This document shows positions 4,479-61,852 of a DNA stretch of 64,000 nt, in pieces. Each line of letters starts with the position of its first letter. Position 1 is the first letter of the stretch. Location: the NCBI GenBank assembly GCA_031289315.1, contig JAITPR010000031.1, positions 1 through 64,000 of the forward strand, in the 5' to 3' direction. The notes beneath the pieces were generated by a model. The model worked only from the letters and a program-made list of their open reading frames with translations, was not told the DNA's origin and ran no database searches. The stretch comes from Clostridiaceae bacterium (GTDB lineage: Bacteria > Bacillota > Clostridia > Christensenellales > CAG-917). Made by a program: the position numbers and the translations under genes.

Positions 4479-4516
4479 TAGCAAACAAAAAATAAATATT
4501 AAGAGGAATAAAGGCA

Positions 4517-5527: not shown

Positions 5528-5571
5528 GAGTAAGCCCGAACAATTAAGGTAAAAAAATGCGACGGCGGATG

Positions 5572-28927: not shown

Positions 28928-29736
28928 CAAAAACTGATGTTTACATGCCAAAAAATGCAAATAAAGGCGCCGTTAAGTATCTAGTTGTTGTTGCACATCC
29001 CGACGACGGCGAAATTTTGGCGGCAGGACCGGTGACAGAATCGGCGAACGGAAAGACAGTTTTAGCGCTTGCGGTGCTGACGGACGGGGCGGGAAGCGCG
29101 CGTTCCGGAGCGTTTGCAGCTTACACGGACGACGAGATGAAAGCGGTTCGGGTAAAGGAGCAACGCGCCGCCGCAGAGGAGGGGCGTTTTGAAAGCCTCT
29201 ACATGTTGCGTGTGCCGAGCGGCGAACTAAAAGCGGGCAGTGCGGAGGCGGTGCGTGCCATTGCGGACATAATTGCCGAAAAGCAGCCGGAGATTTTGAT
29301 AACGCACAATCCTTTCGACCGTCACCCCACGCACCTTGCCGCGGGGCGTACCGTTATGGAGGCATTGAGGTCCTTGCCGGCGGGTAAACGCCCTAAGACG
29401 GTATGGGGAGGAGAGGTTTGGCGTTCGTTGGATTGGTTGCCCGTCAAGTACCGGTTAGCATTGCCGGCGGATACCACGGACGGCGCTGCGGACAGAGTAC
29501 TTTTGTGCCATAAAAGTCAGATAGACGGCGGCAAGCGTTATGACGCGGCGGCAAAGGGCAGACGTTTGCAAAACGCCACCTTTTGCGAAAGCCATTCGAC
29601 GGATTTCGCGCATGAGGTCGCATATTTTACGGATTTATCACGTGTCGCAAGCGGTGAAATAACGCTTGCGGAATTTGTCGAAGAGGTATTGAAGGCGTTT
29701 AACGACGAAATATTAAGCGGCATTAAACGGAAATAG
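28924..29736 (+). CDS. PIG-L/LmbE-family deacetylase
   Basis: A 270-residue zinc-dependent N-acetylglucosaminyl-deacetylase-like protein. The start at 28924 is chosen because AGGAGAAACC precedes it and the ATG overlaps the upstream TGA; the open frame runs 27 codons further back into the preceding gene. The zinc motif HPDDGE is at 25-30 (usually HPDDE/HPDDxE), and the NPFDRHPTHLAAG segment supplies the last zinc His. It probably deacetylates an amino sugar or a related small molecule. Together with GH20 it suggests a small pathway for GlcNAc-type sugars. No sugar kinase or GlcN6P deaminase lies nearby in the window. Confidence 0.88.
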   Translation: MTKTDVYMPKNANKGAVKYLVVVAHPDDGEILAAGPVTESANGKTVLALAVLTDGAGSARSGAFAAYTDDEMKAVRVKEQRAAAEEGRFESLYMLRVPSGELKAGSAEAVRAIADIIAEKQPEILITHNPFDRHPTHLAAGRTVMEALRSLPAGKRPKTVWGGEVWRSLDWLPVKYRLALPADTTDGAADRVLLCHKSQIDGGKRYDAAAKGRRLQNATFCESHSTDFAHEVAYFTDLSRVASGEITLAEFVEEVLKAFNDEILSGIKRK

Positions 29737-30193: not shown

Positions 30194-30222
30194 TTGACAC
30201 GCGGGCGTTATAAGTATATAAT
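30194..30222 (+). promoter_or_regulatory. Consensus sigma-70 promoter of the giant gene
   Basis: TTGACA (30194-30199), a 17-bp spacer and TATAAT (30217-30222) match the consensus at all 12 positions. Transcription would start near 30229, leaving a leader of about 300 nt before the ATG. Confidence 0.85.
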
Positions 30223-30463
30223 TAATATACTTTGGGAGAGGTGCCGTCTTTCGGCGGTTTTTGCCGTTTTGAGGGCTCTACAAAGATTTTTCGTCGGGGG
30301 TACTCCGGCGGAAGCGCAAAAAAATAAGCAAGCGTGAAAAATCCGCGCGCACCCATGTATATGGCAACGCTTCGGACGGTTTTTCGGCGGGCGGGTTGCG
30401 GTTCAAGTTTTAAGTTCGGGGAAGCCGCATGAAGGTTTGCCCGATTTATATAAAAGCATATTC

Positions 30464-30528: not shown

Positions 30529-33500
30529 ATGAAAAAGTTCAGTTTGAAGGTTATTCTTCTCGCGGCGTTGGTTATGGTGATGATCTTCGCGCTTACCGCA
30601 TGCGTCACGGATGACACGGAGGAACCGCCTATATCGTCGACGGGTGGCAAGGATGCCGTTCTCACGGGGCAGATGCCTGGCGTCGAAGGCTTGGTAATGC
30701 TTTACGATTCGGTCGTTGCGATGAAGCGCTACAACGAAACCACGGTCGACCCGGATTACATAAATTTTGATTTTGGGTTTGATTTTTCGATTGAGAAGGA
30801 CGGCACGAAGGACATGTATGCGGTTGTCTTGCAAGGTGCAATTTCCGTTGTGAACGATGCGGACTCCCGTTTCAAGCTTGAGCTTTGGAAATCCGCGGTG
30901 TCACCGGCGGGGCAGACTCCGCGTGAACTCATAATCGGTGCCTATCTTTCAAACGAGGTTATGCTAATCGACTTGTCCGGCTTTAAGGGCGGCAAGCACG
31001 TGGTCTATATTGACACAATCAATTTTTCCGCTTTATTTAGCACGGTTGCGGACGTATGGTACAATCTCCCGCTATACTTGCACGACGACGGCACTTTCAC
31101 GTCCTTCCCTGAGGACGGGACACAGGGCATAGGCGAGCTTATCTCGTACTTTTTAACGAATTTTTCGATTGACTTAGGCGGTATGCAATTAGGCGGCAGC
31201 GGCGGTCTTTTGCGTCTTGTCGGCGGTTTGATGTTCGGCAGTAACAAGAGTAATATCTATGATTTGGGCGGCGGTATGCAACGCATAGTCACCCAATTTA
31301 ACTTAAGCGGCTTGTTGGGCATGGTTTTAGGCATAGCGCCAGTTGCCGATCTCTTAAACGGCGACATGTTCAGCAGTATTTCCAACATAGCGAACGAGCT
31401 GTTAGGACTTGACGTGTTGGGGCTGATAGAAGCGCTTAAAACCGTTAAAGGCGACATATCCTTTGAAACCAACGGCGGACGGTTCTCATCCGTCAACGTA
31501 AACTTAAATGTAACGCCTCCTGCTGCTAGTCCGCTCAATATAGCGTTGGCAATAAATAAAATCCAGCTTGACGACGCGCCGATAATCACCATTCCGGATA
31601 TAGATACATCCGGTATGACGAAATTCTCTCCCACGGCGATAAGCCTTGACGCGACACTAAGTATAGTGATGAAGAGCCACCACTATGAGGTCGGCGGCAT
31701 AACGGACAGCTTGAGCGGCGTACTGGGCTTGCTAGGTGTGTCCGAGGATCTTTCCAGTTTAAGCGATATTTATTTTGACGTCACCCGTGATACGGAATTC
31801 GTTTTTGACGCGAAAATACGCGGCAGTTTGGACTTTATCGACAACGACAAGTCTGAAATTCTGATTGAAATTTCCGAAAGAGGCATTTTGCGCATAGGCG
31901 CGTATTATGTGGGCGCGGACGAAACCCTCTATTTAGATTTAGGCGGTTTGGGCGCCGGAAAATTCAAAATAAGCTATATTAAAGGTAAATCGTTAAACCT
32001 CACGGCGTTACTTCGTGACGAGTTAAATAAGTTATTTAAGGATTTGACCTCAGGTACGGAGGGTTCCGGCGGAGAGGCGCAAGCTACGGAACTGAAGGAA
32101 CTTTTTGCAAGCGGCGGTATAGTTGTTCCTTACGCGTCGTTAGGCGCGGGCGTATCGGCGGATGAACCGGCGGGCGAGCTAGACATATTCGGTCTAATAA
32201 CGACGATTTTAAATAACGTGGACATAGTAAAAAGTGATAGCTTAGCGGACGGTTTACTTTCCGTAAAATCGATAACCGCGATTTTGTCCGGCGAAATCAT
32301 CGACATGATTATAGGCGCCATTTCACCGGGGCTTACGCTTCCCATAACCTCCGTCGACATATTTGTTGACTTTGTAGACGGCGTCGACTTAGGATTGACC
32401 ATAACCATAGGCGAAAAGAACGGTATAGCGGATTTGGTGGCGATAGGCTTAGACGTAACAGATTTACGTTACGGGACCTTGAAAGCCGACTACGTGATGC
32501 CCAACTTCCACAGCGACGTAAACCGTGCGGACTACATGCAGCTTGACAAGAACGGGCAGGTGAGTTTAGAAACCATTTACTTTTCCATAAGCGGCGAATT
32601 TGATTTAAGAATTCCCGCTGCGGAGTGGAACCAGCTTAATTTGGCGGCGGACGCGTCCAAAATAGAATTAGGCATGATATTGGCAAAGCTTTTGGTGGAC
32701 TTTGAAGCCGAGGTTGACGCCAGTTACGCCTTTATTTTGGAGGCGAATATCAACATCGGTGAAATTATTAAATCCGGTATTAACGGCATTTGGGACTCCG
32801 ATTTGCGTCTTGCGGTCATCAACAAGAGGACGGGCGAAACCGTACTTGAGCTCATTTTAACGGAACGCGCCATTTATCTTGACGCGTCGGCTTTAGGCAT
32901 AGAGCGCATAAAGTTTGACTTAGGCGCGGTGCTTGAAGGCGGCTTCGTGGGTACCGCGTTATCTTCGGCGGACGAGGAGCCGGAGAAACTGAACCTAATG
33001 GGCATAATTGGCGCGGCGCTTACCGGTGTCAAATTGAGCGATACTTCTTTGGAAGTCGTGCTTGCCCAAAATGTGCTTCAAGCCGTTTTAAAAATATTGG
33101 GCGTATGGGGCGACGACGCGTCCGGACCGGTTTCAATCACTATAGAAGATCGTTCGGGCAATCCGTTGTTGCTTGAGGACGCATTATTCAGCAATTTAGG
33201 CTTGTCGATAAACTTCGGCGAGGGCTTAAATATACCGTCCTTATCCATAAATCTGTATGCGTCCGTTCCGGATCGTTTAAATTTGGGCTTGTCTTTGGGC
33301 AGTATAAATCTTTCGCTTGCGCCTAAGACGATAAAGCCGGCAAATATACTGGACTTTGTGGACATACTGGCGAACCCCAACATATGGCTTGCGGCGGGCG
33401 CTTACGTTGATTTAGATTTAAGCAATGGCAATATAAGCCTGCAAAACATGTTGGGAGGCATGCTTGCCAATCTTCTTTCCTACGACACGTATTTGGACGG

Positions 33501-36500: not shown

Positions 36501-39500
36501 TTTAAACGAGCTTTTACCGCTTTTGTTCGGCGATATGCTTACGGACGCTATGAAGCAAAATCTTGACTTACCGGGCTTAGACGGCGATAAGAGTTATCTG
36601 CGGTATAACCTTGCGGCTAAGGAGTTGCAGATATCGCTTGCGGTGTCGCCGTTTGCCATAGGGATAGGCTTGGGCGGCTTACGAGTAAGCTTTGCTTCGC
36701 CCGGAATAGCCGGTGTAAACCGTGACGAATATTCGTCTCTACAAGACTTGTCGGAAATTTCGCTCACCTTGCGTGCGGAATTGCGCGTGGATCTCTACCG
36801 CAAGACCGTTCCCGTCGGCGACATAGTCGGCTCCTTCGTGTCGGATTTGGCGCTTGCGTTTAACCTTGACATAGAGGAAGATTTATATATCGACCTAGCG
36901 CTTTTGGTGGAAGCCAACCTGGACAAAAACAATATCGTTGCAAACGAATTGTTGATAGAATTAATCGATGTCAAGAACCACGATACGGTGCTGTTCGGCT
37001 TATACCTTTCCGGTTCCGTTATTTACGTGGACACCGGCGCTTTAAACAGCGTACCGTTCAAGCTTGACGCGCCTGAAGAGGTCAGTTTGCTTATTGATAT
37101 GATATTCGATCTCCTCAACAATATAATTCCCGCGGGGGAGGAGGTCGGAGCGGCTCCCGCCGACGACGGGCAGGTTATCGACGGCGCGCGTATCATTTTG
37201 GAGCTTGCGGAAAAGAATATCAAGCTTACGCTTGTGCAAAACCTTTTCTACGCGCTGTTAGAGAGCTTCTTGCCTAGCATATTTGATGCCCTTACGGAAG
37301 TTTCCTACGTGGTATACGACCCGTTGGTTCACATCAACGCCAATCAATTCTACTTCTTGAACGACGAAGGCAAATACGTTGAGGACACAATCACCAACAT
37401 CCAAAACGCCGGAAAAACCGCCTACGTTACTGGCGAAGTAGGAATGCGTCCTTTCTTTGATTCCTTAGATTTGTCGCTGTCTATTGCCATAAATACCGCT
37501 GCTCCCGCAATCGACATAGCTATTACGAGTTCCGTTTTGGCGCTCCGTTTATCCGTCGGCGACCCGCAGATACAGCTTTTCCGCTCCAATCTTGTGACCG
37601 GCAGAATTTTAAACGCCGTCAAGAACGCTGAGCAATTCGTTGACTTCGGTTCCAATAAGAAGATTTACTTCGACGTAGAATTTGAGATAAGATACGACAT
37701 AGACGCCGGATACGAGCCGATTCTTTTAGATGAGGACGTACCTGCGTATGCGAAGTATACCAGCTATTTTGAATACGACCCGGTTAAACACTCCGCGCAC
37801 ACGGTATTCTATTATTTTGATACTAACATCTATAAGCGTGCGGACGGAAAGACCGCGGCGGAAGTTATTTCGACATACGGCAAGGCATACGTGCTTGTTC
37901 CGGGCAGCTACCGTCAAGACGACTACGGCGAGTATAGGTTGCGTTCGCATGACCTTTCTCCGTTAATCGGCGTCGTTGCGGGCATAGACGGTATAGACGA
38001 CACCTTAGCTAAATTAGGCTCTTTTGATTTGGGCGGCAATAGCATCAATTTAGGCTTGTTGCTTTCAGATTTGTTACAGAGGATGGGGCTTTTGGTCTAC
38101 ACTAACGACCCCGTTTCAAATGCAATAGGTGTTAAAATATCCCTTCTTGTGGACTTGGAGCCCATCCTTGCCAACGGTTTCGGCGGTATTATTGGCGCTG
38201 TAGGCGACCTGCCCGGCTTACTCACCGGTTTGCTTGGCGGTTTGGAAATAGGTATCGAATTGTCCGCAAACGGCAAGACGGTATCCGTGTTCTTAATGGG
38301 CAATACCATTTATGTCGATTTAGGCGATATAGGCGGACCGCAGTTCAAATACTCCGGTCTTGACCTTGCCGCGCTTTTATTCCCGTCCGGACTGGATAAC
38401 CCCACGGGCTACGGCGATGTAAGAGGCGACAGCGCGTTGGGAGTTTCGGAAGCTGCCGAAACCGCCGCGGATGACACCAAGACGATTGTCGAGCGCATAA
38501 TGAACGGCGCACTTGACAAGATATTTATCAACAATAAGCAGTTTGGCATTGCGTTATTGCCGCAAGCGATAGACGTAATAGTCGCGGAAGTCATGAGCAT
38601 GCTTTTGGATACCGAGCTTGAGAATACCACCGATATGTTCTTCCTCTACGACTACGAAACCGGCAAGCTGATAGGCAGGACAAGCGGTTTGTACCTTAAC
38701 TTTGAGGACGAACGCGTAGATAACCGCAACTTAACGTTAGACTTTGACGTATTTCTTACCAACGGACTTGCGGTAGGCTTCTCATTCCTTACGTATGATA
38801 TAAGCTTCGGCGGCGTCAGCAGCATTATCGACAGACAGTCCATAGCTACGCTTCCCGACCTCAAAAACCTGTTGACACAGACCATAGATTTATCAATTAC
38901 GTTGGCGCTTACTGCGGACGCCGATGGGAAGTTCGAAATTGCCGACAACACCTACACGGGTGCGCGTTACAGTTTTGATTCTTCCACGGGACGCTACGTT
39001 CCCGACAACTTCGGCGAATATAAGATGAACCCGGACGGCATAAACGAATACGACTTCACCGACGTTATAAATTCGCTTGTCAATCAGTTGATGCCGGATT
39101 TGGGACTCATATTCGGCGGTCTTAAGCTTGACGTAGGACTGTTGGAAAAGGCGTTATACGGCAGAATTTCCGCCAGTCTTAACTTAGCGGACTTCTTTGG
39201 ATTGGGCAACACGCTCACCTCCGGTTACTCCATGGTGCCGGAAGGCATTGCCTCCTCCGCGGGTGTTGCCTATTACGAAATAAGCATGTCGCCCACGGTG
39301 GATGCGGACGGCGTTGCCGGTGTAAGCTACAAAATGGTGCCGGCGGAGTTCGATTACGAGTATTACTATCTTGCGACGGCATACGACGAAAACGCGACCT
39401 ATTATTCTGTTAACGGCGTCGACGTAAGAAAGTATGATAGCATACGTGAAAGCGTCTTCAACGGCGGTGTCTATCACTTAAAGGGAAGCACCTCATTATT

Positions 39501-48500: not shown

Positions 48501-51500
48501 CCCGCCGAAGTATAAGGAAGGCGCGCTTTACGTCGACCTTTCCAGTTGGGGCTTGCCTAAGATTAAGCTGGCGCCCATAACGGCGTTCATGGGTCTTTTA
48601 GGCTTGAGTGCGTCGGAGGGGCTAAGCTCCGCGGACGTAAACGACGCGGACACCTTAGACCGCGACCCGTTGGCTTTGCCTACCGTCGTAGACTTATTGC
48701 TTGAGTTGTCGCGCTTAGAATTAAGCTTTGATAAGTCGCTTATAGACGGGATTTTGGATCTTGCTAACGTAAGCGTAATGAGCATTCTCAACGGCTTAGC
48801 GGAGTCGCTTGGCTCCACCCTGCCTCGCGACTTCGAAATGGAACTTTTGGACTTGAACGCGTTGAGCGCAGTGGTAAGCTTCGGCTTAGGTATCGACCGC
48901 ATAACGCTTGCCGGCAACCTTGACAACATAGGGCAAGGTTTCGAGTTGGCGGTAGACGACATCGGTGTGTCCTTTACGGAGCGCTACGTCGACACCAAAC
49001 AGATTGTCGCGGACGACGAGGCGGGCGAGTACGGCGGCGTGATTATTACCAGCGTAGCCGACATGATATTCGCTATCATAGAGGGCATCGACTTAGACCT
49101 GTCCATACACCTTGACAAGCGTACCAAACAAAACTATACGGTGTTGAACGGCGATTGGGGAGCGATAAGCTACAAGAACACCGACCTCACCTTGCAGATT
49201 AACAAGGATCAAAACAACGCCATCTATATAAACATAGGCAGCTATCACCCCGATCGCGCCAGCATGGCGTCCAACAGCACCCGCTACGACATAGCGCTGT
49301 GGCTTGCCGACTACATAATTTGGGCGGACCCGCGCAGCTTACTGGGTCAGGGTCTTCACGATTTGTTGGACGGCTTAGGCTTCTTGTTTGACTTGCTGGG
49401 CGCCAACAACGTCGATTCCGGCAGCTTGTTCCCGATAGACTTCTCGTCGCTCATATCCGAATTTATAGGCGGATACCGGCTTGACGACATTTTACGAGGT
49501 GCTTTTGGCGGCTCCGATTCGTCCGCTTCCGCCGCCGAAACCGCGCTTACCGCAACGGACGACACCGCTTCCGCAAGTAAAGTAACCAACAACAATCCCG
49601 CGTTGGATATTCTATCCGCAATTACGGGTGGTAAGGGCTTTAGTGTCGACTTTATTTTCGGGCTTATTGAGGGTATCACGTGGAACCTTTGGAACCCCGA
49701 CAACTACGAGTGGGTGGACGCCGCCGGCAAGCATCAGGTATATACCGACCCGCTCACCTACGGCGACGGACAAAACCTGACGCCGGAGTCGCGCCAAGCC
49801 TTGACGCGTTACAGCTCGCTGTCGCTTGAGTTGAACCCCGAAGCGGTAAACAACATAATAATATCACTAGTATCCTTGTTATTGGGGCAAGTGTTGAATA
49901 TAACGCAACTCACCCCGTATGCTACTCCGCCGGTTATAGGCGAGATGTACCACGAGTTCAACAACAGTGTTCAGGGCGATATCTCTAATGGACACTATGC
50001 TAAGTCATATCACAATTACGTTATGATAACCGCCGCAAATTACGACACCTATCGCCGAAACTATATAGAGGCATGGCGCGACATCATGGAGCATGTCGTT
50101 GCAGAGGCAAACAATGGCTTATGGGGTTCCCTACTTAACGGTGCAATCAACGACCTGCTAGGCGGTGCTTTGGATACCATTAATGATGTAGCTAACTTCT
50201 TCAACAACGGAGAAGATATTACCGACTTATACATGTTGGTAGCGTGGCTTGAAAATTTCCTTAGCGGCATTGACGCTATATCCACCATACTTCCGAACAC
50301 CGGTTACTGGTTGGGTACTATAGTTCCGTTCTGGTTGACGGCGGAGAAGTGTGAGCCGGATAAATACTGGTTGCAGTACTATCCGTATCAGCACGGCGTG
50401 TTGAGAACCGACCAAGCCGTGTTGCTTGCCGGCGGTCCCGCCAGAGTAAGCGCGTTAACCGATATAAACATGCGCGTATACGTCAAGAAGGGCGACCTCT
50501 ACGTCACGCCGACCGCGGCTGAATTGGCGACTATAAACGCCGCTATAAAGGCTAATACCGGCATAAGCGCCTCCGCGCTAAAAAATGCGACGAACTTAGA
50601 CCTATACGTAAAGAACGGCGCAAGCTTGACTATTTACGTCGACCGCCTTGCCGAACAAGAGGTAAAACAAATCGACATAAAACTCGGTCACGAGTTTAAA
50701 GTACACAACCCCAGCACCGGCTTAAAGGGCTACGGTTCGGACAATACCGGCGGAACTAACGCGGCCAACCAATGGGAAAGAATAACCATTGTCAATAACG
50801 GAATAGGCTTCCGTCCCGTGTCCGGCGTGCAAGACGCCTACGGACAGGTGGCGAAAAACCAAAACAACCTTAAAAACGGCATCGACGTTGCCGACCCGTT
50901 CAACGCTTTGGAGATAAAACCCGAGGTTCTGCTTGACGGCGATAAATTCCCGCAACGAATAGGTACGACGTTCTTCGACGGAGGCAACTCAAAGGGAACC
51001 GGCAGTACGTACACGAAAGGCGGCGGTATGCAGATACTCTACGATACGTCGAACGTGGACTTGACGCCGGGCGTAACTAGCTATATAAACGGCTATGTGC
51101 AGAATATTCTCTACGTCGCGGTACCGGTTAAGGTATCAAACGATTGGGCGTTCGAATACGTGACGCAGTTAAACGGCGACCCGATTTCCATAGACGGAAC
51201 CACGGGTGTTACCAGTCTGCCGAGCAACGTAATAGTAGGCTTTGCCAACGGCGCAACCAAATATTTCTCAACGAGCGGCGCCGGTACGGAAATAACGCTT
51301 CCGGACGGCAAAAAGGTCAAGGCGGACGGTACGCTGATATGGGATAACGCCCTATACCGCATACTTGCGGCGGATAAGTATAAGCCTTTCGCGGACTATG
51401 CGCCGGGAGAGCTAGAAAAAGCTTCCTTAGGCGACTACGCGGGCGGTACTTATATAGCGCTGTTCAGCTATCAAGCGGGTACCTCCGCGAAAATACGAGC

Positions 51501-54500
51501 GGAAGTCAAAATCGACGTGGCGGTGCGCAAGGTTGCGACGCTGTCACCCGATGCCTTCTCGTTCAACTCCATGACTTACGACGGCACTATGCGGGTTTAT
51601 TCCCCGTCGGCGGCGACAAAGGACGTAAACGGCAACATAATATCCGTTACCGAGTTGTCCAACGCTAAGGACATAATAGCCTATTTCGAGGGCTATAGGG
51701 CGTCCGCGTCGTATACGGTAAACGGTGTTTCCGTACCCAATGTGGGCGTACGTTACAGCAACGGAGTTTACGGTTACTTGAGCGTCGAATGGGATTTGAC
51801 GGAACTAAGGAAGATAGTCGGTGCGGACGGTTGGTCTCCCGATAAGGGCTTGTGGTGTACGGTAACGGCTAAGGTAGGCGGCAAGGAGAACAGCGAACAG
51901 ACGTTCTACGACATCGTTGTAACCATGCAGGCGCGCATACCCATAGAGATAAACTCCTCCACGATTAAATATAACCCCTACGCGGTAAATGGCGGGTTGG
52001 AGAGCTTCTACAACATACAAGTTAAATATGACGTAGGCTATGTGCCTTACGTTGCGGCTAACCACGACGGTTTGACGGTGTACTACTTAAGCGGCTCCTC
52101 CATGAGAAAGGCGACGGCGTTGCAAAGAGAAGCCGGCATAAGGCTGTTCGTAAGACCTTACGACAACGGCTTGACGACCACCCTTTCGACAAGGCTTTCG
52201 CTCATGGGCAGAAAGGTTTCCGTAGTAAAGTATGCCGCGAACGGCACGGAATCGACGGTTACCTCAATCGACGGCAAGGACGTCTACGTCAAGTACGCGA
52301 ACGGCAAGGACATAATAGTCATTAAAGGCGCGGACGGCAAGGAAACCGTAATAGCTAAGGATACCACCGACGGGCTTGATTTGAAAATCAAGTACGAGGT
52401 CGTGCCCTTGTCTGCGGTACTCACGCCGGAGTTTTTGGAGCAAGCCGGTTATAACGGCTCCGGACATCTCAGGGCATACCTGCTGTTCGGCGGCGCAACC
52501 AACTCGTGGTGGTACCGCGAGCAGCAAATAGAAATAGAGGTTACGCAAAAATCAGTGCGCACCTTTAACGTCGCCCTTAGCGACTCGTTCAACCCGCGTT
52601 GGTACGAAACGCCCGCGTTCTCATTGGTCAGCGCATTGTTCTCCGACAGCAGCAACGCCGACGTAATTCCGGATTGGTCGACGCTCACTTATCATGTAAG
52701 ATACGACCAAACGCTGCACGGCGCGATACCGGAAGGCGCGACTACCACGGCTACGGGACACAAGCTTTACTCCTACGACAGCTCTTCGCACAGATATGTG
52801 CCGGCTGTGGCGGGAGCGGGACGTTCAACCCTATTCGTACGCGATTTCACGGAATACAGAGCGGAGTTATACGGCGGAGCGGTGCTAAAAGGCGGTGTCT
52901 ACGTCACGTCGAACGGTTACGGGCTTTACACCCGCAATGCGGACGGCACATATATCCCCGCGACCTCCTTGACGGGAACAATCTACATCAAGAACGCAAC
53001 GGCGTTTAAATTCTCCACCATTACCGCTTACGCTACCGTGGAAATCGACGTACCGGGAACGGGCGGTTCGGTTGGCGGCAAGCAAGAGATGAGGGTAATG
53101 ATAAGCTCCTCCCGCGTGTCCGATGTGGAAGTCTACTTTGATTTCGCCGGCACTACGCCCGCATACAGCGCACTGCCTAACGTATACGTGTTCAACCCGT
53201 ATCTAACCTCGTTTGACAACCTCTTTGCGTCCTCCTTTGTGAACGGCACCTATTCGGGTGCAAACGGCAAGCAGGTTTTGGTAAGGTACAAGGTGGAAAA
53301 CGGCGGCATATTAGAAACTAAAACCGAAGTCATGCGCGTGGATAGTTGGTACTACGACGCGCAAGCGTTACGCGACGGCGACACCGTGTATGCTTGGATA
53401 GGCTCCGAAAGAAGCACTATAACGGCGGACTTCCTCAACTATACGGTGAGGTTCGACAACGCGGACGTAGGCACAACCGACAGACCTTACAATGAATTCG
53501 TCGACAATATTCAGACGAATCATCCGACGGTCACGGTGATTTGGTCCAACGGCTCACAAAACGATTATTCCGTTGAGTGGTCGGGAAGCATAAACCTTGA
53601 CGCGGCGAACAAGTTCACGCTTACCGGTACGGTCGACTCCGGCATAGCCTCTCCCGCCAAAACGATCGTGTTCAACGAAAGCTTTGTAAAGAGCGGCGAT
53701 TACACGTTGCCGGTCACCGGAGTTACGGTCACAAACCCGTACCTGCAAACAATAGAGAGTGTCACGGACGCGGCGTTCGTAGGCGTTCTTCCCGCCGGGC
53801 TGTCCTATGTCTTTAATAGCTACGACGCAGGCTCCGGACGCGCTACCGTCACCGTAAACGGCAACCTCTACAGCAAGGCGTACACGGTACCCGTAACCAT
53901 ATCGAGCGTTTCGGTAACAGACATAGAAGTCATTCTTCCCGTGTTGGAAAACGACGTTCCTGTGAGCAAAACCGTAAACCTTTTAGGTAGCGTCACGGTG
54001 GCGTACACGGCGTTCTCTGCTCCGGCAACCGCCGCCGTCGTCAAGTTCTCAAACGGCGAAACAAGAAACGTTACGCTGACATGGCAAACCGGGACGTTCT
54101 CCGGCAACAGCTTCCGCAGGAGCGTAAGCATAGCCAAGATAGGCGAAACCGCGTTCCCGACTACCGGCGGAGCAACCTTCGCGTTGCTTTCGGATAGCAC
54201 GACCGTTACCATAGACATAGTTAACCCCTATACGCAAAGCTTAAGGCAGCGCGTAAACAAGGTGTTGGATGCAACGTTCACCGAAGCGCAAACCGCCGTA
54301 AGCGGCTATAACGCCGTCGCGGGTACCGCAAACGTGGCGTTTACCAAAAACAATTACACCAAAACCTATGTGGCGGAGGTAAAGCTGCCCGCTACCGCGG
54401 TAACCGTTACGGCGGTTAAGGTGAACGGACAAGACGTAAAGTCGGGTGCCTACAGCTACAACGCGTACGCGACGGTTCCCACGACGGCAACGGTTGAGTT

Positions 54501-57500
54501 CTCCAACGGCAACACGCAAAGCTATACTATAAGCTGGTCGGCTAACTACGACTACAACGCGGATAAGACAAGCTTTAAGAGAAATCTGACATTCACGCAA
54601 CTAGCCATAGATGGACAGTCCGCGGTAACGGCAATGGCGGCAATCAACGGTGTAGTATTCAACGTAACCGACGATCTGCAGTTCACCGCCCGCGTAAAGA
54701 ACTACTTCACGCAGTCCCTATCCCCGTCGAACGGTACGCTCACATGGACGGGCGGCACCGGAGTGGTCGCCGGTGATATAAGCGTCAGCTACACACACGG
54801 CTCCTCCTCGAACGGAACGGCGGACATCACCGTTACCAAAGGCGGCTATTCTAAAACCTATACGGTTAGCGTAACCGTGGACGGCGTATATATCGCCGAA
54901 ATAACAATACCCGGCAACGGCACCTACGCCGTAACGGACAACAACGGCGTCAAGGGCATTGTGTACCGCAACGCGCCGTTTGCACAGGACGTAAGCTTGA
55001 GGTTCAGAAAAATTTCCGACGACAGCCTTGCGGAAGCCAACGACACCGTAACCGCCAATATCGAATGGGGCGTAATGATGTTTGACGCAGACGGAATTCT
55101 GTCAAAAAACGTAGTCGCGACGTCTAGCACGCTTAGAAGCGGTTCGGTAAATCTTAGCACGGAGGTCTATGCCTACGCCGTACTGTTGAGAAACGCGGTT
55201 AAGGACGTACAGTGGACAATCGACGCGCTTGACAACAACTCCGTGCTTACGCTGTCGGTTAACGAATATACTGTCACCGGCGGCGGTTTGGAAATAAGGC
55301 TGGCAAGCGCTCCCGCGCCCGCCGGCGTAATATCCGTACAAAACCGTACCGTCGTTGTGACGGCGGCAACCAAAGCCGATTCCACTTTGGACGGCTACGA
55401 CATAAGCAAGATTATAGAGGTGTCTTCGAAGGGCGTATCGTCGCCGGAAGCGCTGGTCAAGCTTAATGCGGACGGATTCATAATCGCGGGTACAATGAGA
55501 GTGAGCGTCATAGAGCGTACACCCGTAACCGTGACCTACACCGTAAACGGCGAAGAACATACGCTGTTACGCACGCAAACCGGCGCCAAGGTCATGTCCG
55601 ACATCGTGTTCATAGACAACCCGTATCTGTTCGACTCCGACCACGGCGGTACCAACTACAGCCTTGCCAAAACCGTCACCGTTACCTTTGAGGGCGGAGA
55701 AATTAAACAAATGCCTATCTATTGGTACATCTGCGAAGAAGTGGAAAGAACCGTGGGTACCGAAAAGGTAAAGGTATGGGAGTGGAGTTCCGTTCCCGCC
55801 TCGTTTACCGCTAGAGTCGGCGCTATCTTGAGAGTTTACGGTGTGTTGGGCGACAGCACGGGCGTAACCTTGACGGGCGCTCCGAACGACGTAACCGTGA
55901 CGGACAATAACGGAGGAAAGCACTTCGCTTACTCCGCGCTCATAAGGCTGCCGTCTGTGGCTCTTAAGCTTTCCGATATCGACTTCGGCGTCGGTTATAA
56001 CTTCACGTTCTACCCGTATCCGAACCCGAACGACAGCACGCAAGACGCTTTCGACATTGCCAACTACCCCGACTTCGTAACGCTTAAGGGCTACAAGAGC
56101 ATAGACGGCGGCGACTTTAAATTACCCGCGGTTTGGGACTTGAGCGGTCTTGTGTACACCTACAGAGGCGGCACGGGACACGTTACCGTAACACTCGGCA
56201 ACGAGGTAGGCGGCTATCAAACGCTGTCCGTACCCGTCACCATCGTTGAGCAAAGCTTTATCGCTCCCGTGTACGGCGCCCTAGACGACGGATACGAGTT
56301 TGCTAAGGCAATCGGCATGGAAGGCGGAGCGTTCTCCGGCATGTCCAAATACGCAGTACAATACAACGCGTCGTTGCATGCGGGCAAGACGGTATTCGTA
56401 CTCATGCCGGTAACGGTCAATAAGGGCAACAACGTCTACGAAACCGTTAAGGTGTGGACGGAAGCCAAGCCCGATCAGATTGCCGACCCGGCAATGGGCG
56501 GCAGCCTTTTCGTGAGAAGCGACCTATACGGCTTTAACCCGTTCGTTTCCTACGGCGTAGAGGACAACTATCCGTCCGAAGCGTACGTGGTGTTCTTCAA
56601 CGGTTCCGAATATGTGATGAGCGAAATGAAAATGAAGCTGTCATGGAATTTGAACGCCGTAACCCCGACCTACGCCGGTGGCGACTTCAGAGCAAACGTC
56701 ACGGTTGGCGGCGAATATTACGTCGGTAGCTTTGTGAACGGCATAAAGGTTAACGGCACCTCCGCCGGAGCGCAAACCTTCGCTCAAAACGTGACCTACT
56801 ACGACAGAACGATAGTGCAAATCTCCACCGACCTGCTAACTTCCATGACCTATGCGGATTACTGGGCGGCGGTGGCGTCAAACAACACCTCCGTAGAGAG
56901 CATGATTAAAACCAACTACGGCAGAGATCGCATCGACGCGAAGCTCACCGCAAGCAACTTCTTGATTACGGATGCGACGGAAGGCATTGGCGATATTACG
57001 TGGATTAACCCGTACCGTCTGTCCGGCACCAACCTGTATCTGTCCGATACCTCGTCTAGCACTAAGGTGTACGTGCGTATCCCCGACGGAAACGGCAACT
57101 ATGAGGTTGTTGAATACAGCTTAGGTAGCAACAAGTTCAACCTGCTTTGGAATATGAGTTCCTACCGCCCGATGTACACCGGCGAGGACGCCAAGGTTAC
57201 CGCGGCGCTCACCACCGCACGCGGCGGCACACAAGAAATAATATTCAACCTGCCCGTCATGAAGATGACCGCGAACAGAGTGGATATACCTCTCCCCAGT
57301 GGTGGCGGTTCGCAATATCTGTGGAGCAGTCAAGTTGCCGCTAGCAGAGTAAACAGCACGTGGACGGTTAACCCGTATGCAGATTACGATATGTTCACCG
57401 TACCCAACGCCGGTTACAAGCTTACGTTTGCCAGAAGCTTGCGCGGCGCCGCCCAAACCGTGTATTCCATGGAATTGCCGTATTCGGTCGTCACATTGCC

Positions 57501-58347
57501 GTCCTCATACAGCATAAACAAACCCGGTGCTTACTCCGCACAGATTAAACTGGGCATGCAGGAAGCGTTGCTTATGAACGTGTCGGTCTTGAAGGTGAAA
57601 ATACTTGACGACTGGACTTCACTGCAAGGCAAGTTGGCAACCGCTATGGGCAGCTTAGACACGAGAGCGGAGCGTGAAATCGGTGAAAACCTTATCACGT
57701 ACAAGAAAATGCCCGCGTCGATAGACAACGTAAAAACGCAAGCATACAACCCCGACGGAAGCGTCTACACGGGCGGCTACAACACTGAATCCGTGAGTTA
57801 TAACTTAAAGCCCGCAACCGCGTTGATTTCCGTCGCAAACAAGTATCAAGTCAATGATGTGAAATACTTAAAAGTTCCGTTGATATGGTTCGGCGAAATG
57901 CAATACTACCTTGCGGAATACTCGTCGAGTAGCTCCGGCGTAACCGACGGCATTAGATTGCTAGAGCCTATCTCCATACTAAGCAAGGCGTTTGTACCGT
58001 CGCCGACATTGATCACCAGAAGCGGTGAAAGCGTCGCCGTAACATTCGTGATTTCCTTGCCGGCAAATAAGGCGTACTCATATAGGTTGAACGCATTCGT
58101 CGGTACGTTGAGCGGCGACCTCTCCAACGGTTACTTGAAGTATGCCTACAGGGAGGACACCTTCGGTGAATACAACGTGCCGGCGGATATGATAATGCCC
58201 AAATCGTTGTTCTATACGGAGCGCCACTCTCACGACATCTACGAATACTACGATGCCGGCATCACGGGCTTAGGCGACCACGCCGATACCAGCGGTCCGG
58301 TGTGGACTAACGTAGACACCACCACGCCGGCGGCTAACAAGGCATAA
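30529..58347 (+). CDS. Giant repetitive surface lipoprotein, 9272 residues
   Basis: One uninterrupted frame of 27.8 kb, preceded by AGGAGG 5 nt before the ATG. It begins with a lipoprotein signal (MKKFSLKVILL..., lipobox LTAC, Cys25), so the mature protein is held in the membrane by its N-terminus outside the cell. There is no C-terminal anchor or sortase motif. Residues about 60-6,450 hold some 15 divergent copies of a beta-rich module with a core like (I/L)YIDLSxxGxxxIxxG, hydrophobic LLxGLLG-type stretches and an acidic Ser/Ala/Asp linker. Residues about 6,600-9,000 are Ig-like repeats with an NPY motif. A 45-60-residue cassette (Y..HG...YYxx..Y.PAT..L...LYVK) recurs in both parts. No enzyme motif was seen. 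The cores resemble LolA/LppX-type lipid-binding lipoproteins; this is inference only. Adhesion, lipid or glycan binding are all open. Confidence 0.9.
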   Translation: MKKFSLKVILLAALVMVMIFALTACVTDDTEEPPISSTGGKDAVLTGQMPGVEGLVMLYDSVVAMKRYNETTVDPDYINFDFGFDFSIEKDGTKDMYAVVLQGAISVVNDADSRFKLELWKSAVSPAGQTPRELIIGAYLSNEVMLIDLSGFKGGKHVVYIDTINFSALFSTVADVWYNLPLYLHDDGTFTSFPEDGTQGIGELISYFLTNFSIDLGGMQLGGSGGLLRLVGGLMFGSNKSNIYDLGGGMQRIVTQFNLSGLLGMVLGIAPVADLLNGDMFSSISNIANELLGLDVLGLIEALKTVKGDISFETNGGRFSSVNVNLNVTPPAASPLNIALAINKIQLDDAPIITIPDIDTSGMTKFSPTAISLDATLSIVMKSHHYEVGGITDSLSGVLGLLGVSEDLSSLSDIYFDVTRDTEFVFDAKIRGSLDFIDNDKSEILIEISERGILRIGAYYVGADETLYLDLGGLGAGKFKISYIKGKSLNLTALLRDELNKLFKDLTSGTEGSGGEAQATELKELFASGGIVVPYASLGAGVSADEPAGELDIFGLITTILNNVDIVKSDSLADGLLSVKSITAILSGEIIDMIIGAISPGLTLPITSVDIFVDFVDGVDLGLTITIGEKNGIADLVAIGLDVTDLRYGTLKADYVMPNFHSDVNRADYMQLDKNGQVSLETIYFSISGEFDLRIPAAEWNQLNLAADASKIELGMILAKLLVDFEAEVDASYAFILEANINIGEIIKSGINGIWDSDLRLAVINKRTGETVLELILTERAIYLDASALGIERIKFDLGAVLEGGFVGTALSSADEEPEKLNLMGIIGAALTGVKLSDTSLEVVLAQNVLQAVLKILGVWGDDASGPVSITIEDRSGNPLLLEDALFSNLGLSINFGEGLNIPSLSINLYASVPDRLNLGLSLGSINLSLAPKTIKPANILDFVDILANPNIWLAAGAYVDLDLSNGNISLQNMLGGMLANLLSYDTYLDGEQQRDTDGTRQYISFVKEDSGTYTVKGKVYPADPELASIFGFVGYGTEQVYVLAIDLPRVKIPGSSPESFYENMDILVTGAPYGVWDNVVYVNVSNPANSAFSISYTTSGVRKDLAFELDATEFDRQTIEVGTLIEVYGGINIDLELKLEANIDLSSVLAALLVREPVQGKIGKSFTNKLLYRYDTAEGKYVVTSVEEAVLYQTQYVKLEADGSFEKIPDGTYNSAVYKDTAIYKAGIYGYSLSANNYVIVDTSKIEGYQTLYTTGKPQNADNTQLLLEVRSKSANVVLFGIYYVGGILYADLSSIGVERVAISIDIMDLVIGLLLGESPAIAAAAGVGDIGGAADEFGLTFLVLLSIRDSGLQLRLAEGLAGLLLELAGINIPSVIAEAGIKTEEGDAGEFTKYYLSIALGRDETDEVLKLELGINALELGFTARNISRRSFGSDYSAVNMSAEGKGIAGIYLEASAYISFEADRYANPDDMEWNVGEWGLQDVLVALLNDSLTTDPNALLQLTGDSLSSFISKLLIEYQLLNSIDAALGIRLALDVRINPNDYTSYDVGKHGAVYLKTEKGYLIHYVDGVTAADVAVLSRGGAFYYNTATTGPQTFRSATAEEIAARLTVFTLKASEAGDGTGLWEYVNGEYKAFTGTPADGVTYYTSVIATNAEISVGTGLYFFKENTDSDGNVTVDKGYLVSGTAARVLQTQTLAAALYSADMRPATENECYSSDKIWVEKDKLITQHDVVEHGILAYQTEQGKILYIRAYDSVLEATVYHPARAEEISAFYRDMDNETLKLYVKSDLLDGSPVSADGYSEYVPAKHGIVALAAGDGSALYYYDAATRMLTVATLEQTIRGLNLYVQRGYDINYILTHSDIAIEIYNGKYGTGEKIIGVYLFYDGDNVLGKPLNSVYIDLDTSFANGVKLKVDGVALGDLLGFSYDESETVISAGTYAISSAAAKDEEYKENPNGTYETVFGVINGAIRSLSLSNEAVSINLQENILNELLPLLFGDMLTDAMKQNLDLPGLDGDKSYLRYNLAAKELQISLAVSPFAIGIGLGGLRVSFASPGIAGVNRDEYSSLQDLSEISLTLRAELRVDLYRKTVPVGDIVGSFVSDLALAFNLDIEEDLYIDLALLVEANLDKNNIVANELLIELIDVKNHDTVLFGLYLSGSVIYVDTGALNSVPFKLDAPEEVSLLIDMIFDLLNNIIPAGEEVGAAPADDGQVIDGARIILELAEKNIKLTLVQNLFYALLESFLPSIFDALTEVSYVVYDPLVHINANQFYFLNDEGKYVEDTITNIQNAGKTAYVTGEVGMRPFFDSLDLSLSIAINTAAPAIDIAITSSVLALRLSVGDPQIQLFRSNLVTGRILNAVKNAEQFVDFGSNKKIYFDVEFEIRYDIDAGYEPILLDEDVPAYAKYTSYFEYDPVKHSAHTVFYYFDTNIYKRADGKTAAEVISTYGKAYVLVPGSYRQDDYGEYRLRSHDLSPLIGVVAGIDGIDDTLAKLGSFDLGGNSINLGLLLSDLLQRMGLLVYTNDPVSNAIGVKISLLVDLEPILANGFGGIIGAVGDLPGLLTGLLGGLEIGIELSANGKTVSVFLMGNTIYVDLGDIGGPQFKYSGLDLAALLFPSGLDNPTGYGDVRGDSALGVSEAAETAADDTKTIVERIMNGALDKIFINNKQFGIALLPQAIDVIVAEVMSMLLDTELENTTDMFFLYDYETGKLIGRTSGLYLNFEDERVDNRNLTLDFDVFLTNGLAVGFSFLTYDISFGGVSSIIDRQSIATLPDLKNLLTQTIDLSITLALTADADGKFEIADNTYTGARYSFDSSTGRYVPDNFGEYKMNPDGINEYDFTDVINSLVNQLMPDLGLIFGGLKLDVGLLEKALYGRISASLNLADFFGLGNTLTSGYSMVPEGIASSAGVAYYEISMSPTVDADGVAGVSYKMVPAEFDYEYYYLATAYDENATYYSVNGVDVRKYDSIRESVFNGGVYHLKGSTSLLNHNDTTFDPNALYLDYSGAVLTGVRGYEFVLAELDFMSAQTGDYHYPATGTAYLAKNNVTGYVSYAGVLKPDATAAEFKNGYSYIDIASVTLSRAESDVPSDSATYISFNLATGTYALTAKNDSGSYVFEDGIVYYDVTIIYDYSIKPVAYRTGGRGAPRFKEDRDYFTASATTAFMVVKENEKYDFYTSYYYYNETLSEYIEVPKGKFLAQNTEDFNPETQYYTRDAGGTSDGLYRALNTTTVYDVISEDSYFNEEAEYYGVVKVYNEKGEAVGQKTDKIYRVARTDAGGAIVKDSKGEIVYYFRAARKTQSGAVLRDAGGNIIYDEIASASVAKAEYLGRVNVYNNAGEIVGWKYDSVYRVARTNAAEEIIGYYFRTERKTATGVILKDKDGNTLYDEVSFIIDTKAEYYGSIFVESDHIVAKIGRVYAFKMIFDGTVAYGFVAAAENVNGETLKDDDGNVRYEGTRALYTKEIVITKVAASATYDPSVTYVRYSNDVGGYMQIYGADDFNSYLNSDRLYRYGFASADNGTYFIQGDFETAKNTLPLYRSFIISDLASGNWNSLELALQLMEKNDEGDYKVLGGIYLVDGTLYIDGSGIFEDQPAPAYVSGFADLIMAAAGVSSDAASTSADGASTGDAYVRDAFLTLLMSDPLYKLSITREILGFVFSYVLGADITDILGSMSISVDIGKNVPLQTIQDISLGLSINLGAIDLYAGISDINIDFKHGASFMPREVAANATSFDKTITSFSFNIDLHVQMTSGTVDFGGLFADLVGDIWGITAVIPEATGSEINISVRVLASIDWGNFANTKLGIEVHAVFGDSTTKWIGLYFINDTLYIDLSEIGVAPIAVGKLTYVPLIDSLTAGANGVGFLNGMGIGEYLESLLGGYLGRNTATGVALSSIDTELDYELDGIRILLNDTGVRLEIANDFLRSVLGLLGVNGLIQNAIDLGAELSVNGDPLELNLALGLHADADSAFTYYDRYRELSASEKSSVADADKYSEYYRYEPTEHAGARVFYAYDAVNKNYFRLDTDRKVYASTRMYITLFTLVGSVYGVYNDDGVIGDGLYYYDYDEEEYYLLTTQAELNVVPLTVNEFIVALALILDDNYVKINGKFRSDPNGTHTKTPDGEKEFIVQLSLRNFAIVFSDSDIFDFSASGYTDWEDMEYLSIDWRIDFDYNLPAVITDFSPLAQLLLPELANLVVQSGVTNAAIDGEGALIIRADINIKYIIDFVTQIIDASSKDEDILDFILDNITDVLSALNLEISLHYNGKQMFGLYVADGGIYLYLEGLGLPNIAVGPDMIKEVLTMLLPLITGAGTSSDDSALSTADESGNVLGLALPLVQDPIILQAINGIIKGITITSRVTELLIKNSYINTVLELLLSVYVPYDPAVHGELDPAVAAGNVTIDGYTVYYHSKAGDTDIYEPATASQLRNGADLFVSPRLNLYDDHAFKVGATYVPYDVAVYGAIDATNPNGNITEKGYTVMFKDPARNYYAPATIAEVAAGDNLYVADGDDSKISINFEDYSYQLINSENWTDGDKKYSYVDGKDFIEDPNGAYARVKRDAFVSFRLYIFESMVNVKLDIPAVKANERLVKLPNGAVFEDLVTLKYEVYTATEYGAVQSVTDASAQLTTSSGYKLYYLNAGEYQPATASTPSSPLYIKTLNIGLSLQLRGTIEISAPSAGASVKLGDLLPGLLGDLPTILGAEDSIDVTFYYEIMLNAGISLSPDTGSFKVSDFGLALNLSRQTGTSVTKFISLYYDDKTEALYIDLSSYNVGKVAIGGVSVPEIINGLLSPDSSATASALDPYEIPYLLIDVFTSALRAELSPRLLQSLLNMLLGSDVASYIPQVGITLQLTESPITASIGLVVYGDVTPPGGGVSSTGPILNIALGWNGFDVVDFGSDLKLYVDRGIFGADGDNDFADYTKLANLDLAPVLAGGTLDIGSLIKIDPDFDSVGLNLSIDLGFSAAQGEHSWDDFFTALLSGNSAAARLSVIDGDSITSVSLDIEALIGLSRLTDFLLGETDDILQALAGTQLRIGLVVHYGAGPNAEKVKMVTLVVEIDENGGITVYIDASGLVSQTKVWDEYSGTWLPAADKLNLGKLKIGPLYLSNFASTAGASSALSSADEVISDENYGLIGESVYNVIKNLFYKIGYSGNALVITFNNDLTNAIAGLIGADEMTDAEIPIRLLELSLDLFDITLNGRLSLDNESGNFAAEILLNVGGLSVTFNKLSDNKTLLPEDVRMYTTLGELVINYELGARLDVYSDRTGKTLESGNVAPPMDISGVVDLIGSLLEGGVLFKSPVFNIRSSDDIINMFTELKIALYLDISDLDSLQFMLSLYGATGMGMSAYITGQDIYIDMEMLGLPMIKIGSLNVGSLLEGLIGSYIGVDYGDSAHAADLTSAKSLALNAGTAYLLALMKPEYLAIAINTELINVILGFILDLAGADLGDFTLPALGTLSLGLDSEGVYADGTVYVSGSGYATAQQLEAASELFVKDGDTYRPATNADFIAAKQMYTGNIVKATAAQIAESDRLSVNVTTVIRPNLTQLKNYLADPTIGTIHYIEQSGKAFPATVAQVAARLSFYEISTSDPLYTYTLVPDLGAIYVTPDSVFKISFIEAAAAQVAYRATLTYGNGDIAGYYGIRTVLEGIYADTPEPNTTINSTYVKATGVPSVASPGYYQLLPREYAVGNAFIMLNGYEAYDPGKTVFRSGNVADTYQRVTYAPATILQLSSNNGLYVKISDGGTRPFLDWKISEGTYVSLALQSSEITRAYTGFMPQLMKDYEPANSAGKDVYYLEDDGTTLTKLTAAQLEAYIKDGKPTGKLRYSDYTEVFNIADMTVTADTVSLNIEGTITLQTSNVSALTGDSEYADSFQKWISTLLAALLKGGVAVNMEEFNEYINAFNIIFPSGMVGLNYNIRVDLKIGALINALISGGGFDIGVILDSDIYIDIGYGAPINKILLSLAYVGSEKVTTYVDTHGVLGTTPIDPPKYKEGALYVDLSSWGLPKIKLAPITAFMGLLGLSASEGLSSADVNDADTLDRDPLALPTVVDLLLELSRLELSFDKSLIDGILDLANVSVMSILNGLAESLGSTLPRDFEMELLDLNALSAVVSFGLGIDRITLAGNLDNIGQGFELAVDDIGVSFTERYVDTKQIVADDEAGEYGGVIITSVADMIFAIIEGIDLDLSIHLDKRTKQNYTVLNGDWGAISYKNTDLTLQINKDQNNAIYINIGSYHPDRASMASNSTRYDIALWLADYIIWADPRSLLGQGLHDLLDGLGFLFDLLGANNVDSGSLFPIDFSSLISEFIGGYRLDDILRGAFGGSDSSASAAETALTATDDTASASKVTNNNPALDILSAITGGKGFSVDFIFGLIEGITWNLWNPDNYEWVDAAGKHQVYTDPLTYGDGQNLTPESRQALTRYSSLSLELNPEAVNNIIISLVSLLLGQVLNITQLTPYATPPVIGEMYHEFNNSVQGDISNGHYAKSYHNYVMITAANYDTYRRNYIEAWRDIMEHVVAEANNGLWGSLLNGAINDLLGGALDTINDVANFFNNGEDITDLYMLVAWLENFLSGIDAISTILPNTGYWLGTIVPFWLTAEKCEPDKYWLQYYPYQHGVLRTDQAVLLAGGPARVSALTDINMRVYVKKGDLYVTPTAAELATINAAIKANTGISASALKNATNLDLYVKNGASLTIYVDRLAEQEVKQIDIKLGHEFKVHNPSTGLKGYGSDNTGGTNAANQWERITIVNNGIGFRPVSGVQDAYGQVAKNQNNLKNGIDVADPFNALEIKPEVLLDGDKFPQRIGTTFFDGGNSKGTGSTYTKGGGMQILYDTSNVDLTPGVTSYINGYVQNILYVAVPVKVSNDWAFEYVTQLNGDPISIDGTTGVTSLPSNVIVGFANGATKYFSTSGAGTEITLPDGKKVKADGTLIWDNALYRILAADKYKPFADYAPGELEKASLGDYAGGTYIALFSYQAGTSAKIRAEVKIDVAVRKVATLSPDAFSFNSMTYDGTMRVYSPSAATKDVNGNIISVTELSNAKDIIAYFEGYRASASYTVNGVSVPNVGVRYSNGVYGYLSVEWDLTELRKIVGADGWSPDKGLWCTVTAKVGGKENSEQTFYDIVVTMQARIPIEINSSTIKYNPYAVNGGLESFYNIQVKYDVGYVPYVAANHDGLTVYYLSGSSMRKATALQREAGIRLFVRPYDNGLTTTLSTRLSLMGRKVSVVKYAANGTESTVTSIDGKDVYVKYANGKDIIVIKGADGKETVIAKDTTDGLDLKIKYEVVPLSAVLTPEFLEQAGYNGSGHLRAYLLFGGATNSWWYREQQIEIEVTQKSVRTFNVALSDSFNPRWYETPAFSLVSALFSDSSNADVIPDWSTLTYHVRYDQTLHGAIPEGATTTATGHKLYSYDSSSHRYVPAVAGAGRSTLFVRDFTEYRAELYGGAVLKGGVYVTSNGYGLYTRNADGTYIPATSLTGTIYIKNATAFKFSTITAYATVEIDVPGTGGSVGGKQEMRVMISSSRVSDVEVYFDFAGTTPAYSALPNVYVFNPYLTSFDNLFASSFVNGTYSGANGKQVLVRYKVENGGILETKTEVMRVDSWYYDAQALRDGDTVYAWIGSERSTITADFLNYTVRFDNADVGTTDRPYNEFVDNIQTNHPTVTVIWSNGSQNDYSVEWSGSINLDAANKFTLTGTVDSGIASPAKTIVFNESFVKSGDYTLPVTGVTVTNPYLQTIESVTDAAFVGVLPAGLSYVFNSYDAGSGRATVTVNGNLYSKAYTVPVTISSVSVTDIEVILPVLENDVPVSKTVNLLGSVTVAYTAFSAPATAAVVKFSNGETRNVTLTWQTGTFSGNSFRRSVSIAKIGETAFPTTGGATFALLSDSTTVTIDIVNPYTQSLRQRVNKVLDATFTEAQTAVSGYNAVAGTANVAFTKNNYTKTYVAEVKLPATAVTVTAVKVNGQDVKSGAYSYNAYATVPTTATVEFSNGNTQSYTISWSANYDYNADKTSFKRNLTFTQLAIDGQSAVTAMAAINGVVFNVTDDLQFTARVKNYFTQSLSPSNGTLTWTGGTGVVAGDISVSYTHGSSSNGTADITVTKGGYSKTYTVSVTVDGVYIAEITIPGNGTYAVTDNNGVKGIVYRNAPFAQDVSLRFRKISDDSLAEANDTVTANIEWGVMMFDADGILSKNVVATSSTLRSGSVNLSTEVYAYAVLLRNAVKDVQWTIDALDNNSVLTLSVNEYTVTGGGLEIRLASAPAPAGVISVQNRTVVVTAATKADSTLDGYDISKIIEVSSKGVSSPEALVKLNADGFIIAGTMRVSVIERTPVTVTYTVNGEEHTLLRTQTGAKVMSDIVFIDNPYLFDSDHGGTNYSLAKTVTVTFEGGEIKQMPIYWYICEEVERTVGTEKVKVWEWSSVPASFTARVGAILRVYGVLGDSTGVTLTGAPNDVTVTDNNGGKHFAYSALIRLPSVALKLSDIDFGVGYNFTFYPYPNPNDSTQDAFDIANYPDFVTLKGYKSIDGGDFKLPAVWDLSGLVYTYRGGTGHVTVTLGNEVGGYQTLSVPVTIVEQSFIAPVYGALDDGYEFAKAIGMEGGAFSGMSKYAVQYNASLHAGKTVFVLMPVTVNKGNNVYETVKVWTEAKPDQIADPAMGGSLFVRSDLYGFNPFVSYGVEDNYPSEAYVVFFNGSEYVMSEMKMKLSWNLNAVTPTYAGGDFRANVTVGGEYYVGSFVNGIKVNGTSAGAQTFAQNVTYYDRTIVQISTDLLTSMTYADYWAAVASNNTSVESMIKTNYGRDRIDAKLTASNFLITDATEGIGDITWINPYRLSGTNLYLSDTSSSTKVYVRIPDGNGNYEVVEYSLGSNKFNLLWNMSSYRPMYTGEDAKVTAALTTARGGTQEIIFNLPVMKMTANRVDIPLPSGGGSQYLWSSQVAASRVNSTWTVNPYADYDMFTVPNAGYKLTFARSLRGAAQTVYSMELPYSVVTLPSSYSINKPGAYSAQIKLGMQEALLMNVSVLKVKILDDWTSLQGKLATAMGSLDTRAEREIGENLITYKKMPASIDNVKTQAYNPDGSVYTGGYNTESVSYNLKPATALISVANKYQVNDVKYLKVPLIWFGEMQYYLAEYSSSSSGVTDGIRLLEPISILSKAFVPSPTLITRSGESVAVTFVISLPANKAYSYRLNAFVGTLSGDLSNGYLKYAYREDTFGEYNVPADMIMPKSLFYTERHSHDIYEYYDAGITGLGDHADTSGPVWTNVDTTTPAANKA
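30700..49800 (+). repeat. About 15 divergent beta-module repeats of the giant protein
   Basis: The core strand motif occurs near residues 145 (VMLIDLSGF), 464 (LYLDLGGLG), 778 (IYLDASALG), 1286 (LYADLSSIG), 1899 (VYIDLDTSF), 2162 (IYVDTGAL), 2591 (IYVDLGDIG), 3582 (LYIDGSGI), 3828 (LYIDLSEIG), 4277 (IYLYLEGLG), 4761 (LYIDLSSYN), 5065 (VYIDASGLV), 5354 (IYIDMEMLG), 5998 (LYVDLSSWG) and 6230 (IYINIGSYH). Spacing is 200-990 residues because cassettes and Tyr-rich blocks are inserted. Residue numbers are estimated from nucleotide positions. Confidence 0.75.
40278..40926 (+). repeat. Tandem 65-79-residue repeats inside the giant protein
   Basis: Three units start with Y(Y/L)G at 40278, 40516 and 40732. 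Units 1 and 2 share NxxGExVGxKxDxxYRVART and YFR(A/T)xRKTxxGxxLxDxxGNxxYDE; unit 3 is more diverged. The segment interrupts the region between the seventh and eighth beta modules. Confidence 0.75.
50640..57590 (+). repeat. Ig-like NPY repeats in the C-terminal part of the giant protein
   Basis: Repeats of roughly 100-150 residues with an NPY-type strand (VFNPYLTSF, VTNPYLQTI, IVNPYTQSL, IDNPYLFDS, WINPYRLSG, TVNPYADYD) followed by a strand reading like VxFSNGxTxxxxVxW. They resemble bacterial Ig-like surface domains in rhythm. Copy count is at least eight. Confidence 0.65.
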
Positions 58348-58486: not shown

Positions 58487-58518
58487 AAAAAGCCCCGACT
58501 AAAAATCGGGGCTTTTTC
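58487..58518. terminator. Bidirectional rho-independent terminator
   Basis: AAAAAGCCCCGA (58487-58498) and TCGGGGCTTTTT (58506-58517) form a perfect 12-bp stem with a 7-nt loop, A-rich on one side and T-rich on the other. It serves the giant gene and the convergent tadA gene. Confidence 0.93.
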
Positions 58519-61835: not shown

Positions 61836-61852
61836 ATTTCAAATAAGCCGCC

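Follow-up and report, generated by a model that had tools for sequence, protein, structure and literature searches.

The giant gene and its neighborhood

The window analyzed here, a stretch of 64,000 nucleotides at the start of contig JAITPR010000031.1, is drawn from a 96-kb contig of a MAG that comprises 2.18 Mb in 63 contigs. A preliminary description, made from the sequence of the window, had drawn attention to a single giant lipoprotein gene. The features at this locus are as follows.

26388..27944, + strand: GH20 beta-N-acetylhexosaminidase, conserved upstream neighbor
28064..28927, + strand: DUF4380/epimerase-like protein
28843..29736, + strand: PIG-L type N-acetylglucosamine deacetylase, conserved upstream neighbor
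30194..30222, + strand: sigma-70 type promoter, TTGACA-N17-TATAAT
30242..30256, + strand: small terminator-like hairpin with T-run, in the leader
30529..58347, + strand: giant lipoprotein gene, 9272 aa (~1.0 MDa), one frame without a stop
30529..30603, + strand: lipoprotein signal peptide, lipobox LTAC with Cys25, read from the sequence
30775..50049, + strand: module array
36733..37710, + strand: module 6
41752..42612, + strand: module 9
50050..58344, + strand: C-terminal ~2765 aa with Ig-like (Big_4) domains, no module match
58487..58517, no strand assigned: palindromic intrinsic terminator 3' of the giant gene

The frame, ribosome site, promoter and lipoprotein signal that had been claimed for this gene all stand. 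The frame of 9272 codons is unbroken, the ATG is preceded by AGGAGG, and the promoter, which lies ~306 nt 5' of the start codon, agrees with the consensus at 12 of 12 positions. Since the gene has its own promoter of this quality and its own terminator, it appears to be transcribed as a single-gene unit. The hairpin in the leader is a possible attenuator; such hairpins are no commoner here than in shuffled sequences, and a search of the leader against Rfam gave no match. Between the stop codon and the terminator lies a 19-bp tandem repeat in 3.8 copies (58400-58470).

The lipobox Cys25 is invariant in all 12 aligned orthologues, and LspA (PF01252) is present in each of nine genomes tested, the window's own included. 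Omp85, searched for in the same nine genomes, was not detected. This combination fits a monoderm with surface lipoproteins. The 9272 residues contain only five cysteines, which is compatible with an exported protein, and we infer that the giant protein lies at the cell surface. Its C-terminus, read directly, carries no LPXTG and no transmembrane or otherwise hydrophobic end, as the preliminary description had said of a sortase signal.

In several genera of the family, GH20 and PIG-L genes are found upstream of the giant gene; in the window, neither product has a visible signal peptide. The DUF4380/epimerase-like protein between them has no Pfam match and resembles, by eye, a neighbor in genome G006 and the start of a DUF4380-like neighbor in G160. 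The latter genome, a member of another family (f24), has DUF4380, ROK and PIG-L genes upstream of its giant gene. A member of genus g4, however, has an HGSNAT-type gene in place of the usual neighbors, and G111, G172 and G195 have others again. Because the neighbors differ in these genomes, a link to glycans is taken here as suggestive.

Downstream of the giant gene, some relatives encode two proteins with zinc ribbons, the first of them a Band_7/SPFH protein (L039:1844-5206, L043:14688-16907), in some cases together with a Mem_trans carrier. None of these Band_7/SPFH and zinc-ribbon genes directly follows the giant gene in the window. Here, two adjacent genes for Rce1-like CAAX endopeptidases stand next to a gene with a metallo-beta-lactamase fold (60792-63946, - strand). 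Elsewhere in the window, tandem repeats of 38 bp (3.2 copies, 5616-5736) and 66 bp (3.4 copies, 9604-9830) are found, the second inside the ORF at 8445-10433.

Relatives, selection and distribution

A 28-kb frame in a MAG of 63 contigs invites the explanation that it is an artefact of assembly or frame. To this reading we give almost no credence. Independent MAG assemblies contain uninterrupted orthologous frames, and no sign of a join or of a broken frame was seen. Homologues, mostly in giant open frames, were found in 17 of 60 related genomes, all of the same family. Complete orthologues range from 6203 to 10465 aa without stops; the shorter frames, where checked, end at the end of a contig.

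The pattern of substitution is a second argument against an artefact. In one close pair of orthologues (G010 and G015, 79% identical), dN/dS is 0.20 overall and 0.14-0.31 in each 1000-codon block across a 31-kb frame. Low values in every block imply that, in that pair, translation and constraint extend over the entire frame. Thus, the giant gene is real, and in this pair it is kept by purifying selection. A 28-kb gene is also a heavy cost to a 2-Mb genome. The cost and the selection together imply that the giant protein must matter to these bacteria.

In some relatives, antisense open frames of more than 2500 aa face the giant gene (L024:12349-19998 and L025:2126-9823, G029). Such long antisense frames are probably an effect of codon composition.

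The protein had been described as rare. Within its lineage it is not. In a profile search that covered 43 genomes of the family, 33 had an N-terminal match above 300 bits among the matches listed and are counted as having an orthologue; such a gene also occurs in several genomes from the order's other families. An order-wide survey of 297 genomes returned weaker matches within giant frames in these other families. One example, in family f16, is 10,300 aa long with 20 modules by the module profile; four giants from f24, a family whose giants reach 12,531 aa, have 13-15, and two shorter proteins from f5 (2627 and 3173 aa) have 3-7. When five genomes, drawn from three of the order's families, were searched with the module profile, all matches but one fell inside the one giant frame. 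In a class-level sample of 341 genomes, the sole match was the window's own genome. Since few genomes in this sample come from the positive families, it sets no more than a loose bound on the range.

By these profile matches, most genomes of one gut Clostridia family encode a member of the predicted giant-protein family, and members also turn up in at least two further families of the order. The relatives named in sequence records are MAGs of Clostridia, among them Candidatus Limadaptatus stercoripullorum and one recovered from roe deer cecum; where the source is readable in the record, it is an animal gut. The contig search behind these sources used a five-sequence alignment as its query.

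One relative (G007, contig 3) has a cluster of smaller lipoproteins of 596-1143 aa (L056:3623-7033 and neighboring ORFs). Their N-terminus matches the beginning of the giant one, and Pfam gave no match for them.

A divergent module in frozen order

The N-terminal ~6500 residues consist of 14-15 divergent copies of one module of ~310 residues. An iterated HMM search (~311 positions) gave, on its first pass, 13-15 modules per complete orthologue. In the window's protein 15 were detected, of which 14 are common to the family and one is weak. Their limits by the module HMM, all encoded on the + strand, are as follows.

Modules 1-5: aa 83-358, 363-681, 679-973, 1126-1470, 1854-2072
Modules 6-10: aa 2069-2394, 2497-2804, 3541-3722, 3742-4028, 4155-4502
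Modules 11-15: aa 4665-4929, 4950-5233, 5256-5503, 5844-6156, 6188-6507

Mean identity between modules is 17%, and modules 2 and 3 align with an hhalign probability of 98%. Module 9 is among the most typical copies (126.6 bits with the HMM). Neither NCBIfam nor the PDB sequences gave a match to the module, and a Pfam scan of 87 modules returned scattered single matches, none of them recurrent. No match to a well-described family of giant proteins was seen either. The claim that the protein has no known motif therefore holds for its N-terminal two thirds and fails for the C-terminal third, where Big_4 (PF07532) scores 42.9 bits against a cut-off of 22.1 (E = 3.5e-11). Big_4 was found in this tail only, and the tail is partly conserved between orthologues. 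A literature search, largely confined to open-access papers outside bioRxiv, turned up no account of a lipoprotein like this one from the group. Judged by these comparisons, the predicted module is previously undescribed, and the analysis defines both a module that lacked annotation and a family of giant proteins.

A second, Tyr-rich repeat of ~45 residues (Y-x-PYD...HG...YY...Y-x-PAT...LYV) occurs inside or between modules and also in the C-terminal tail. Its sites are at ~35600-36000, 43700-44100, 46900-47800 and 52700-53000, which are aa ~1700-1800, 4400-4500, 5470-5730 and 7400-7480.

The strongest and least expected result of the analysis is the colinearity of the array. Among nine 14-module orthologues from genera g3, g4, g5 and g8, the best match of a module is the module at the same ordinal in 992 of 993 comparisons, where chance would give ~7%. 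The window's own protein, from genus g1, matches these nine at the same ordinal in 97 of 108 comparisons. Members of g6, g7 and g9 show the same order on inspection of the table, once a module that is divided into two in G006 is taken into account, and the four f24 giants are largely colinear among themselves. With count and order both frozen, it must be the length or a specialized order that matters, not the mere presence of repeats. The question is then whether the selected trait is length, position-specific binding or transport.

The structure of one module was predicted with AlphaFold. The sequence modeled was not the window's own, coming instead from the orthologue of module 6 at locus L051, with an alignment of 87 rows that combined orthologous and paralogous modules. 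The model is partly confident (pLDDT 76.6, pTM 0.68, 119 of 316 residues at 90 or above). It has nine predicted strands, hydrophobic on one face and polar on the other, together with amphipathic helices. Over the 87 modules, alternate positions in most strands are ~80-100% and 10-30% hydrophobic. Low-confidence linkers inside the modules, with a consensus like SAEAVTAAD, are probably flexible. Prediction for three modules together, with 11 sequences, reached a pLDDT of only 40.

Foldseek found no significant match to the module model in the PDB or a viral library. The best E-values belonged to CD1-type folds, with TM below 0.2; these were taken as noise. The LolA-like carrier 4mxt gave E 0.17, below significance, with TM 0.33 by target length, the best target TM among the matches listed. 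The profile of DUF6612, a family that we take to be LppX-like, aligned to the module with an hhalign probability below 1%, from a small DUF6612 alignment. For the TULIP/BPI fold, query A1 gave non-significant matches to BPIFA1 (E 0.49-0.68) and query A5 gave nothing.

Possible roles: fiber, conduit, adhesin or precursor

What such a protein might do can be read in several ways. The one we favor, tentatively and at somewhat less than even probability, is a lipid-anchored cell-surface fiber of fixed length that serves as a scaffold for extracellular material. Here, lipidated Cys25 would tether the N-terminus to the membrane's outer face, some fourteen amphipathic beta modules would make a fixed-length stalk, which is probably long enough to span the wall of the cell, and the Ig-like region would be borne at its far end. 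The scaffold would hold extracellular material, perhaps a GlcNAc-containing glycan, close to the membrane for uptake, and the material taken up would serve the intracellular GH20 and PIG-L enzymes encoded alongside. Both the extended shape and the tie to glycans are presumptive. The invariant Cys and LspA, the lack of detectable Omp85, the colinear modules (14-15 per complete orthologue), the constraint over the full frame in one pair, the Big_4 tail and the scarcity of cysteines all point this way, as do the GH20 and PIG-L neighbors in several genera and the ROK and PIG-L neighbors in one member of another family. The neighbor link is, however, not universal. Against the glycan part, in particular, stand the lack of a visible signal peptide on either enzyme, the giant gene's own promoter, and modules in which no carbohydrate-binding domain was found.

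The alternating faces of the strands, the amphipathic helices and the fixed number and order, which would suit a bridge, allow a different reading. The modules might be LolA/LppX-like or other single-sheet lipid-binding half-barrels, set in a row of fourteen to form a conduit or relay that carries lipids or other hydrophobic molecules between membrane and cell surface, as bridge-like lipid transfer proteins do in principle. The non-significant similarities to 4mxt and BPIFA1 lean in this direction. Yet no fold match is significant, the DUF6612 comparison speaks against it, and amphipathic strands are normal in packed beta domains too; we consider such a conduit rather unlikely. In its bolder form, where fourteen hydrophobic-groove modules in fixed array conduct hydrophobic molecules across the wall of a monoderm, the idea is decidedly unlikely. 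Were it true, a bridge-like transfer protein would exist in a cell without an outer membrane. An ordinary giant adhesin, with a generic repeat stalk and an Ig-like tip that binds host mucus or other cells, would agree with the size, the lipoprotein signal, the Big_4 tail and the gut sources of relatives. Adhesin repeats are usually similar to each other, and they expand and contract. The divergent, strictly colinear copies found here are unlike these, and an adhesin of this kind has a small share of the probability. The contrast with typical giant adhesins had been drawn earlier from the lipid-anchored N-terminus and the free C-terminus; it is borne out by the frozen module number. The linkers inside the modules speak for a precursor that is cleaved after export to release many separate proteins of one module each, and processing has been suggested for other giant proteins (PMC13104272). 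But the modules stay in one frame in all complete orthologues seen, and loose products need no fixed order, which makes a precursor very unlikely.

Among comparable known systems are the surface giants Giant1-5 of Apilactobacillus kunkeei, a Gram-positive bacterium with a small genome; these are reported to be extracellular proteins of 3,000-8,000 aa (PMC12863079). The likeness is one of description, and the present protein differs in being a predicted lipoprotein with an unmatched module. The giant genes of Omnitrophota (West-Roberts et al., cited in PMC13104272), seen through that citing paper, likewise encode giant proteins in single genes of uncultured bacteria, and are likened by description alone. 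The RBG and AsmA-TamB bridge-like proteins, as described in PMC7613979 and PMC11014939, are also long, repeat-built and strand-rich, with one hydrophobic strand face and a fixed arrangement; they share no sequence or significant fold match with the present protein, and Omp85 was absent from the genomes tested.

Big_4 proteins are alike in the C-terminal third, and the N-terminal ~6500 residues are unrelated to them. The module may share with the LolA/LppX/DUF6612 lipoprotein folds a strand meander with an element of the form 'G-x-Y-x-x-G-x-L-Y-x-D' and then a helix; the profile comparison with DUF6612 and the LolA-like fold match were both non-significant. Repeat adhesins, finally, have a variable count of similar repeats, while the present array holds 14 modules, 17% identical, in a fixed order.
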